Shown here in pieces: positions 44,217-46,933 of a stretch of 64,000 nt of DNA. Position numbers and translations under genes: made by a program. The stretch covers positions 780,981 to 844,980 of the forward strand of contig JABWAT010000001.1 of the NCBI GenBank assembly GCA_013360915.1. The letters run 5' to 3'. The stretch comes from Bacteroidota bacterium (lineage in GTDB: Bacteria; Bacteroidota; JABWAT01). Every line of letters starts with the position of its first letter. The first letter of the stretch is position 1. The notes under the pieces were generated by a model. The model did no database searches and had not been told where the DNA came from. It was given only the letters and a program-made list of their open reading frames with translations.

Positions 44217-44854
44217 TTCCGCTGTTTCCGCTGAATGTGGTGGTTTGTCCCGGCGAAGAACTGGCTTTGCACATCTTTGAAGACCGCTACCGGGAAATGA
44301 TCCGGCTTTGCATCAGCGAAACCCGTCCCTTTGGCATTATTCTGGTACATGACTCCGCCATGATGACTGTTGGCTGCACAGTGAAAATCAGCCAGGTTCT
44401 GAAGGTTTTTGATGATGGACGGATGGATATTCTGACGGAAGGCCAGCAACGATTCACCCTGCTTTCCACCGACCGCCGGAAAAGTTACCTGCAGGCAACA
44501 GTCGATTACTTCTCTGATGAACCGGGTGAACCGGACTCATTTGTCACCGAAGAAGCCATCAGGCTTCACAAACAATTGCTATCTCTTGCTGGTGCGCCGG
44601 CCGATGAGAAAACCTATGAAAAAAGACCTCTTTCCTTCTCTTTGGCCCACAGTGCCGGACTTGATCTTGAAGACAAACAAAAGCTGCTCGAGGACCGGTC
44701 AGAACCCTCCCGTCTGTTGTTCCTGATCGGGCATCTTACCGCACTGATCGATAAAATCCGTTACTATGAAGAAGTAAAAAAGATGGTCCGGGCAAACGGA
44801 CATGCCCGTTTTTTTCCACCCATCGACCTGACCAATCTGGGAACCCGATCATGA
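44213..44854 (+). CDS. LON substrate-binding-domain protein (Lon N-terminal-like, no protease)
   Basis: 213 residues, nearly all a LON/PUA-like domain: 'MIPLFPLNVVVCPGEELALHIFEDRYREMI', 'FGIILV', 'VGCTVKI', and a helical tail 'LTALIDKIRYYEEV'. No AAA+ or Ser-Lys protease domain is present, and the length is normal for the stand-alone family. Function is not established; it may bind protein substrates for another protease. Start and stop overlap both neighbours by 4 bp, so pepP-LON-MBL is one transcript. Confidence 0.9.
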   Translation: MIPLFPLNVVVCPGEELALHIFEDRYREMIRLCISETRPFGIILVHDSAMMTVGCTVKISQVLKVFDDGRMDILTEGQQRFTLLSTDRRKSYLQATVDYFSDEPGEPDSFVTEEAIRLHKQLLSLAGAPADEKTYEKRPLSFSLAHSAGLDLEDKQKLLEDRSEPSRLLFLIGHLTALIDKIRYYEEVKKMVRANGHARFFPPIDLTNLGTRS

Positions 44855-45699
44855 AAACCATTGGTGATTATACGCTGCAAACCATTGAAACAGGCCGCTT
44901 CCGACTGGATGGCGGGGCCATGTTCGGGACGGTACCCAAAGTACTCTGGGATCAGCAACTCCCGTCGGACCCCCAGAACCGGATTGATATGGCACTGCGC
45001 ACACTTCTGATCAGGGGCCATGGCCGAACCATTCTCATCGACACAGGAATGGGCCATAAATGGGATGAACGACAGCAGTCCATGTATGCGCTCGATTACT
45101 CACATACCACTTTGACGCAATCACTCAATGCAGCAGGAATCGGACTTTCAGACATTACTGATGTGATTCTGACTCACCTGCACTTCGATCATGCCGGCGG
45201 TGCCACCATGTTAAGGGATGGAGAACCCGCACCTGCCTTCCCGAATGCCACTTACTACATCCAGAAATCCAATCTGGAATGGGCACGAAATGCACATGAA
45301 CGCGAACGGGCCAGTTATCTACCCCAGAATTTCGAACCATTGGCCCTTGCCGGTTGTCTTGAATCCATCGATGGCCCAACCACCTTGTTTCCCGGATTGT
45401 CCGTTTTTGTTTCGGATGGCCATACAATCGGCTTGCAGGGGGTGAGAATAGAGGGATCGGGCGAGTCGGTGGTTTACTGTTCTGACCTGATTCCAACCAG
45501 CGCCCATATTCCCGTTCCATGGATCATGGGCTATGACATTCAGCCGCTCATTCTTCTGAATGAAAAGAAAAACCTGCTCAGCCAGGCCCTCGATCAGAAC
45601 TGGATTCTGTTCTTCGAACATGACCCGGTTACAGAAGCATGCAGACTTAAACCCGGAAAGAAATATGTCGAAAAAGGCGACCCGGTTGTCTTTAGCTGA
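44851..45699 (+). CDS. Metallo-beta-lactamase-fold hydrolase
   Basis: 282 residues. The zinc motif THLHFDHAGG near residue 108, an early 'ILIDTGMG', a later His in 'SDGHTIG' and Asp in 'YCSDLIP', and a final His in 'FFEHDP' match the AHL-lactonase/RNase Z-like MBL branch ('quorum-quenching' class). The likely activity is hydrolysis of a lactone or ester, but the substrate cannot be read. No signal peptide. It closes the pepP operon; a structured RNA locus follows 100 bp on. Confidence 0.85.
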   Translation: MKTIGDYTLQTIETGRFRLDGGAMFGTVPKVLWDQQLPSDPQNRIDMALRTLLIRGHGRTILIDTGMGHKWDERQQSMYALDYSHTTLTQSLNAAGIGLSDITDVILTHLHFDHAGGATMLRDGEPAPAFPNATYYIQKSNLEWARNAHERERASYLPQNFEPLALAGCLESIDGPTTLFPGLSVFVSDGHTIGLQGVRIEGSGESVVYCSDLIPTSAHIPVPWIMGYDIQPLILLNEKKNLLSQALDQNWILFFEHDPVTEACRLKPGKKYVEKGDPVVFS

Positions 45700-45801
45700 A
45701 ATTTTTTAAAATCAAAGCCCTCGAACCTTACTTATTAAACCAGAGTGACCTTTAAATTGCGCCACTTCGGGTGAATTTCAGAGTCAATGTAAAATTTTAA
45801 G

Positions 45802-45849
45802 TGGAAACGTTTCCAAACTATTGACATTTAAGTGAGGGGCCCGTATGTT
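45802..45849 (+). promoter_or_regulatory. LacI-type operator and sigma70 promoter of a short transcript
   Basis: A perfect 14-bp palindrome TGGAAACGTTTCCA (45802-45815) is followed by TTGACA (45821-45826), a 17-bp spacer and TATGTT (45844-45849). The palindrome ends 5 bp before the -35 box. The 331 bp between 45700 and 46030 hold this promoter, the RNA and its terminator; the first 100 bp show nothing else I can name. Confidence 0.72.
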
Positions 45850-45855
45850 TGCTCC

Positions 45856-45967
45856 TGACGGTACTGGTCATACTGTCAAAGAAAGCTCAGCATGACCGCA
45901 AGGAAGTGCTGAATCCTTTTCTGTATCTTCATGGTTTACCCCGGTTTGGTCACCGGGGTTTTTTTTT
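45856..45967 (+). ncRNA. Candidate structured small RNA (about 112 nt), new or unrecognised family
   Basis: Starting about 7 nt after the -10 box, three stems follow. (1) TGACGGTA/TACTGTCA (45856-45863 and 45871-45878), 8 bp with one G-T. (2) TCAGCA/TGCTGA (45887-45892 and 45907-45912) around an internal loop TGA/AAG, a CC/GG pair and a GCAA tetraloop. (3) A strong terminator. No credible reading frame starts inside; trhO begins 63 bp after the terminator. It could be an independent RNA or a leader that attenuates trhO. I compared it with SRP RNA: the tetraloop hairpin looks slightly similar, but the conserved AGCAG side of the SRP loop is missing. Confidence 0.6.
45938..45967 (+). terminator. 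Intrinsic terminator of the small RNA
   Basis: ACCCCGGT (45938-45945) and ACCGGGGT (45952-45959) form an 8-bp stem with a 6-nt loop, followed by nine T (45959-45967). Confidence 0.88.
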
Positions 45968-46030: not shown

Positions 46031-46933
46031 ATGGAAACTTATCATATCCTTTTATATTACAAATACGCTCCGATTCCGGATCCGGTTGCCTTTATTGCTG
46101 AACACCGGCAGTTGTGTTCCTCCCTGGACCTGAAGGGCCGGATTTATGTTGCTGGTGAAGGCATTAACGGAACGGTTTCAGGGTTACCGCACCAGACCGA
46201 TGCCTACCAGGAAGCGGTCCGGAACCTTCCGGGTTTTGAGACAATCGAATTTAAAACAGAAACCTGGCATCAGCATGCCTTTCCAAGGCTAACCATCAAG
46301 GTCCGTCCCGAAATTGTGGCACTGAAAGCAGGTACCGACCTCGATCCCAATCAGGAAACCGGCACGTATCTGGAGCCCGGAGAGTTTGACCAAATGCTTG
46401 AATCAGATCCGGATGTTCTGGTTCTCGATACACGGAATGACTATGAATATGCCATCGGGCATTTTAAAGGGGCTGTTGAATCCCCCATCCGGAACTTCAG
46501 GGATTTCCCCGACATGATCGAGAAACTGGAACCCTACCGTGATAAGAAAATCCTTGCATATTGCACGGGTGGAATCCGGTGTGAAAAGGCAACAGCTTTA
46601 TTAAAACGGGCCGGATTTAAACAGGTTTTTCAGTTGCATGGCGGAATCATCCGGTATGGGCAGATCACTGGTGGCAAAAATTGGGTGGGCAAATGTTACG
46701 TGTTCGACAAACGGATTGCTGTTCCGGTCAATCAGACAGATAACACGGTTATTTCGACCTGCCGAATCTGTCAGCAACCTTCCGACAGGTATATTAACTG
46801 CAGCAATGCGGCATGCAATCAACAAATACTGGTTTGTGAATCCTGTGAACCAGCCATCAAAGGGGCCTGTTCCGAGGCCTGCACCAACTCACCTCTGAGC
46901 AGATGGGGTCAAAAACAGGAAAGTCCGGCCTGA
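46031..46933 (+). CDS. trhO: tRNA uridine(34) hydroxylase, rhodanese type
   Basis: 300 residues. An N-terminal acylphosphatase-like domain ('YHILLYYKYAPIPDP', 'GRIYVAGEGINGTVSG'), a rhodanese domain with active-site C178 in 'YCTGGIRCEK', and a C-terminal cysteine-rich segment ('CRICQQPSDRYINCSNAACNQQ', four or more Cys). This is the TrhO/YceA layout; TrhO uses O2 to make 5-hydroxyuridine at position 34 of tRNAs. It lies after the small-RNA terminator. The last codons form a perfect 12-bp hairpin. Confidence 0.95.
   Translation: METYHILLYYKYAPIPDPVAFIAEHRQLCSSLDLKGRIYVAGEGINGTVSGLPHQTDAYQEAVRNLPGFETIEFKTETWHQHAFPRLTIKVRPEIVALKAGTDLDPNQETGTYLEPGEFDQMLESDPDVLVLDTRNDYEYAIGHFKGAVESPIRNFRDFPDMIEKLEPYRDKKILAYCTGGIRCEKATALLKRAGFKQVFQLHGGIIRYGQITGGKNWVGKCYVFDKRIAVPVNQTDNTVISTCRICQQPSDRYINCSNAACNQQILVCESCEPAIKGACSEACTNSPLSRWGQKQESPA

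Follow-up and report, generated by a model that had tools for sequence, protein, structure and literature searches.

Positions 45856 to 45967 of the window (the whole 64,000-nucleotide stretch of Bacteroidota DNA that was analysed) very probably contain a real, previously unlisted small RNA (sRNA) gene that is restricted to one class. Its product, about 112 nt long, is reasonably likely to be a free-standing sRNA that belongs to a LacI-type alpha-glucan/glucoside regulon and would act in trans by base pairing with mRNAs. The strength of the case comes from conservation across genomes and not from the single sequence, in which both the palindrome and the promoter match are at chance level: four perfect 14-bp palindromes were seen in the window and about four are expected, while a promoter scan over 2.2 kb gave 2 promoter-like sites where 1.9 are expected. 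An earlier note on this DNA had described a palindrome, a promoter, two hairpins and a terminator within 45802-45967, and when the sequence was re-read all of them were found in their places (Table 1).

Table 1. Features of the sRNA locus in the window, and the candidate regulator gene elsewhere in the genome.
Feature	Position	Strand	Remarks
14-bp palindrome TGGAAACGTTTCCA, candidate LacI-type operator	45802-45815		arms TGGAA/TTCCA conserved, centre variable
Bacteroidota-type promoter, TTG-N20-TATGTTTG (relatives: TAACTTTG)	45821-45851	+	predicted +1 at 45856
Promoter hexamers TTGACA and TATGTT, 17-nt spacer	45821-45826; 45844-45849	+	
Very probable sRNA gene, about 112 nt	45856-45967	+	fold; conservation in 4/4 class genomes examined; no Rfam match
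Hairpin 1, 8 bp, loop CUGGUCA	45856-45878	+	88-100% identical in relatives
Hairpin 2, GCAA loop in this genome	45887-45912	+	sequence diverged, 7-8 bp helix kept
Linker AUCCUUUUCUGUAUCUUCAUGGUUU, mostly unpaired, invariant core CUUUUCUGUAUCUUCAUGGUUU	45913-45937	+	likely seed region
Intrinsic terminator, 8-bp stem (45938-45959), then T to 45967	45938-45967	+	loop UUGGUC; conserved including the loop
Metallo-beta-lactamase-fold (MBL) hydrolase gene, upstream neighbour	44851-45699	+	kept beside the RNA in G003 and G001
trhO (UPF0176_N + rhodanese), downstream neighbour	46031-46933	+	not conserved beside the RNA
LacI-family gene of this genome	G000:C8 8377-9408		

A single copy of the RNA element is found by BLAST in each of the four genomes of the class that were examined (two genera, 77-80% identity). 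These genomes all belong to one family, and the three relatives of the present genome are the public Bacteroidetes MAGs JAFLBE01, JAIUNL01 and JAKLJL01. Between genera, identity is 88% from the operator to the -33 element, 88-100% in hairpin 1 and 98% in the linker and terminator, and it is 53% in the promoter spacer and 42-44% in the hairpin 2 region. The flanks are 56-57% (100 nt upstream) and 39-50% (60 nt downstream) identical, and the adjoining MBL gene is 65% identical at the DNA level. Conserved blocks of 88-100% identity stand against 39-62% for the upstream region, promoter spacer and downstream region. In each of the three lineages compared, 57 nt separate the operator block from hairpin 1. 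Hairpin 1, the linker and the terminator are the nearly invariant parts of the RNA, with the terminator hairpin the most constant of them.

Outside the class, no convincing homologue was detected in 391 other genomes of the phylum (BLAST and covariance model). The weak matches in other families of the phylum were inspected one by one and are bare terminators or chance similarities. In an exact 18-mer scan of 84,980 genomes plus viral contigs, matches beyond the three relatives lacked hairpin 1 or the terminator, and no plasmid or phage match to the element was seen. Collection of loci via TrhO found nothing, and a literature search on sRNAs in Ignavibacteria/Kapabacteria returned nothing relevant.

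The promoter and the intrinsic terminator are conserved together, and the RNA is conserved independently of the downstream gene, as expected of an sRNA gene. The earlier note had also offered a trhO leader with attenuation: transcription would start at 45856, and the terminator (45938-45967) would set read-through into trhO, the ATG of which lies at 46031, on the same strand and 63 nt past the terminator. However, trhO follows the RNA in this genome only. In G003 the next gene encodes an aldo/keto reductase, and in G001 a D-hexose-6-phosphate mutarotase-like gene is followed by an aldo/keto reductase gene (these names are a reading of the sequences). In addition, the sequence between the terminator and the next gene is not conserved, no alternative antiterminator is evident, and it is the terminator hairpin that has changed least. 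The leader was rejected because the RNA is retained beside different downstream genes, and it is very improbable. The MBL-LON side of the RNA is kept in relatives.

On the minus strand, a GTCAA/TTGAC box is present in the region 45700-45801 and in the equivalent regions of two other loci (L003, L004); in all lineages it precedes the operator by a similar distance. It may belong to a divergent promoter antisense to the MBL gene; a clear -7 element is absent.

Where this genome has TATGTTTG the relatives carry TAACTTTG, and a TTG is found 20 nt upstream in all of them. Judged by its sequence, the sRNA promoter fits the Bacteroidota -33/-7 type (TTTG / TAnnTTTG) at least as well as sigma-70. The TTGACA-17-TATGTT arrangement reported before is present. 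The G at -5 rule for Bacteroidota promoters (PMC6847099) predicts +1 at 45856, the first base of hairpin 1, which is the start that had been proposed under sigma-70 rules. The only match to TTGAC-N18-TAnnTTTG in the 64-kb window is the sRNA promoter. Transcription of the sRNA would begin at a Bacteroidota-type promoter and be ended by the intrinsic terminator.

An ATG at 45845 opens a 16-codon frame (MFAPDGTGHTVKESSA) in this genome and the frame FAPDGTGHTV is kept in relatives, as might be seen if the stretch encoded a short peptide and not a regulatory RNA. This ATG, however, falls within the -7 element and so precedes the predicted +1. The frame lacks an ATG in G001 and G002, and conservation does not extend to the tail of the peptide. 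In the antisense frame MKIQKR similarity is lost beyond the sixth codon, and the best-conserved part of the locus (linker and terminator) falls outside the plus-strand frame. A coding function is scarcely credible.

The RNA has a minimum free energy of -37.9 kcal/mol and beats 200/200 dinucleotide shuffles (z = -3.6). The pentanucleotide UGGUC is common to the loops of hairpin 1 (CUGGUCA) and the terminator (UUGGUC) and is invariant in all four genomes, as is the single-stranded 22-nt linker. Hairpin 2 behaves differently: each lineage forms a 7-8 bp helix despite 42-44% sequence identity. The TGA/AAG loop and GCAA tetraloop that the first reading had singled out are present here but are not conserved in relatives. 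In a hand alignment, 3/6 pairs of this hairpin changed on both sides, in one between-genus comparison only. Automated covariation counts, based on three distinct sequences among the four genomes, gave no excess over shuffles. MAFFT and the covariance model misplace hairpin 2 of this genome, and automated covariation is therefore uninformative. For the proposed check, three distinct sequences are too few to establish covariation, and that of hairpin 2 is suggestive only.

By eye, hairpin 2 of both genera has bases that could pair with the loop of hairpin 1: AUGACC in this genome and ACCAG in the relatives. A loop-loop contact, kept by different bases, is possible.

Two observations could place the RNA, as a divergent form, in a known family (SRP 4.5S, 6S, PrrF, RyhB or similar). 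Hairpin 2 of this genome (CCGCAAGGAAGUGC) resembles the SRP tip, and sub-threshold Rfam scores reach 25.6 bits, largely from the terminator. Nevertheless, no Rfam match reached the gathering threshold: SRP RNA (RF00169) stayed below it, as did the PrrF, RyhB, Spot 42 and anti-hemB models. The tip-like motif is private to this genome and absent in relatives, and the true SRP RNA is found at G000:C1:511101-511200 with 56 bits. Membership of a known family is highly improbable, and the earlier description of the RNA as possibly undescribed agrees with the Rfam check.

The palindrome is centred at -47.5 from the predicted +1, just upstream of -33. Its arms TGGAA/TTCCA are invariant in 4/4 genomes, but its centre is ACGT here and GGCT or GGGA in relatives. 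It had been called a LacI-type operator partly for its central CG, and that reason now carries little weight as the CG is not conserved. The missing CG makes membership of a LacI regulon less likely, yet possible, because exceptions are known: LacI operators that lack a central CG form a minority (49 different and 29 degenerate of 1251 even-palindrome regulators; PMC4052901). The same survey reports that 72% of LacI regulators autoregulate, and with both figures in mind the operator here fits a known minority pattern.

Other evidence does support the LacI-type assignment. By a Pfam search, this genome has a single LacI gene and each relative has 2-3. One of these genes is orthologous in 4/4 genomes, with an identical HTH (TIYDIAREANVGIGTVSRALNNHPKI) and the Pfam domains LacI and Peripla_BP_3. 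Behind it come genes for a TonB-dependent receptor, for a large protein that has no Pfam match in this genome, and for a PorV-like protein. Exact TGGAAGCCTTTCCA is found 31-33 nt upstream of the orthologous lacI ATG in all four genomes. TGGAA-N4-TTCCA is therefore present at both lacI and the sRNA in 4/4 genomes, although 1-3 of the 4 central bases are not the same in the sRNA operator as in the form at the lacI promoter.

The 14-mer TGGAAGCCTTTCCA has nine exact occurrences in the four genomes, each of which either precedes a gene or falls at its very beginning. Four are at lacI, two are upstream of a GH3 glycosidase gene (G001, G002), two are at the 5' end of a CBM48/alpha-amylase gene (G001, G002) and one is upstream of a sodium/solute (SSF) symporter gene in G001, with one- and two-base variants in G002 and G003. 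In this genome TGGAAGAACTTCCA is found upstream of an alpha-amylase gene with CBM26. The link to sugar genes that was proposed at the outset is thus borne out by TGGAA-N4-TTCCA before amylase, GH3 and symporter genes. Over all positions the pattern occurs 61 times against 23 for a reversed control pattern, and many of the sites fall inside genes. Directly upstream of the other LacI paralogues the sites are TGTAAACGTTTACA or tandem TGTAAGCGTTTACA, which argues that the TGGAA form is specific to the orthologous regulator. A stricter motif with longer flanks (AAGTGGAA-N4-TTCCAAACT, 3 mismatches) was not enriched over control genome-wide, and the longer flanks therefore appear specific to the sRNA promoter.

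The sRNA could be real while its palindrome serves a different regulator, or no regulator at all, and has no link to sugar. The chance-level number of palindromes per window would agree with this, as would the different operator centres among species and the lack of genome-wide enrichment of the long-flank motif. Against it, the arms are conserved in 4/4 genomes at a fixed distance from the promoter, and identical arms are found at lacI and sugar genes of the same genomes. This explanation is unlikely, and from the shared sites it is quite likely that the sRNA belongs to a LacI-type alpha-glucan regulon.

These genomes contain two different LacI operator codes side by side (L115-L117). A separate pattern is seen about 100-400 nt upstream of the GH3 and symporter genes of G001-G003 (L146, L147, L161, L165, L178), where arrays of about three TATCAAAATGATA-like palindromes are found. 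The arrays precede the LacI-type site; downstream there is a TTTTGGCAYG element of sigma-54-like type (TTGGCACGTTGTATGCA in L178). Together these suggest control of the same sugar genes by sigma-54 and an enhancer-binding protein.

In the proposed mechanism, the LacI-family regulator would bind TGGAA-N4-TTCCA, probably repress its own gene, and also control the alpha-amylase, GH3 glycosidase and sodium/solute symporter genes. As read from the sequences, the operator is in the promoter start region at lacI and near the -33 element at the amylase gene, as for repression. Sites of the LacI-family protein CcpA upstream of -35 tend to activate, and promoter-overlapping sites repress (PMC3463425). 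With this precedent, the position of the sRNA operator just upstream of -33 makes either sign possible. The sRNA would then add a post-transcriptional arm to the alpha-glucan/glucoside response, most likely by pairing with mRNAs in trans through the invariant single-stranded linker core CUUUUCUGUAUCUUCAUGGUUU and possibly the two UGGUC loops. The candidate target-pairing segment is CUUUUCUGUAUCUUCAUGG.

Antisense pairing is suggested by the anatomy of the RNA and, given the rest, is somewhat favoured. Duplex tests against about 30 start regions (regulon and neighbour genes), a very small target search, gave no consistent target, and a search for the linker complement matched only the interiors of ftsA and a carboxypeptidase-like (peptidase) gene. 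The RNA might instead act by binding a protein through its UGGUC loops or linker. The constancy of the loops in 4/4 genomes and the failure of the duplex tests to find a target mRNA would suit such a role; however, a single-stranded linker of 22 nt that does not vary is typical of base-pairing sRNAs, and so small a search says little against pairing. Protein binding is improbable, and base pairing is retained as the preferred mode of action. A more elaborate proposal is that of a clade-specific sRNA family at the core of an alpha-glucan regulon of LacI type whose operator lacks the CG. With two matching UGGUC loops and a linker seed, the RNA would serve as a feed-forward arm or a sponge, in bacteria that have no known sRNA chaperone. 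This is speculative and rather unlikely.

Spot 42 (RF00021) and similar carbon-regulated enterobacterial sRNAs are sugar-linked and consist of hairpins, a linker and an intrinsic terminator. The present RNA has the same parts and a predicted sugar link, but it scores 13.4 bits with the Spot 42 Rfam model against a gathering score of 80, and its regulator differs. RsaI of Staphylococcus aureus is about 111 nt long, is controlled by the LacI-family protein CcpA, is linked to sugar supply and pairs with mRNAs (PMC9266662). Size, a LacI-family regulator (predicted here) and a sugar link are shared, while phylum and sequence are not; RsaI is under the global CcpA, whereas the present regulator appears to be local, a self-regulated LacI within an alpha-glucan regulon.

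GibS of Bacteroides thetaiotaomicron, as presented in the parts of its description used here (PMC7366714), is an intergenic sRNA of about 145 nt with a conserved single-stranded seed and a link to sugar metabolism. Both are intergenic Bacteroidota sRNAs with a conserved single-stranded segment and a sugar link (predicted here), in a group without obvious Hfq or ProQ. No search run gave a sequence match between them. GibS is largely unfolded with a 5' seed, while the present RNA has a hairpin at its 5' end and carries its conserved single-stranded segment ahead of the terminator; those parts of the GibS report describe no LacI-family link. By analogy the sRNA may work like GibS or RsaI, yet it is a member of neither family by any test run. 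The regulon resembles surveyed LacI-family regulons (PMC4052901) in its even palindrome, probable autoregulation, a site about 30 nt before the regulator start codon and carbohydrate targets, but unlike most of them has an operator centre that is not CG. The term "small RNA" is absent from the text of that survey.

The sRNA is probably the RNA arm of a starch/glucoside sugar response. Characterised sRNAs are few in Bacteroidota and their deep-branching relatives, and those with a predicted regulator are fewer still. Here the regulator, operator and co-regulated genes can be named, which gives the RNA a directly testable condition (alpha-glucan or maltose supply). If the proposal is true, it would add another LacI-family sugar regulator that controls an sRNA, in a phylum where Bacteroides is without obvious Hfq or ProQ.
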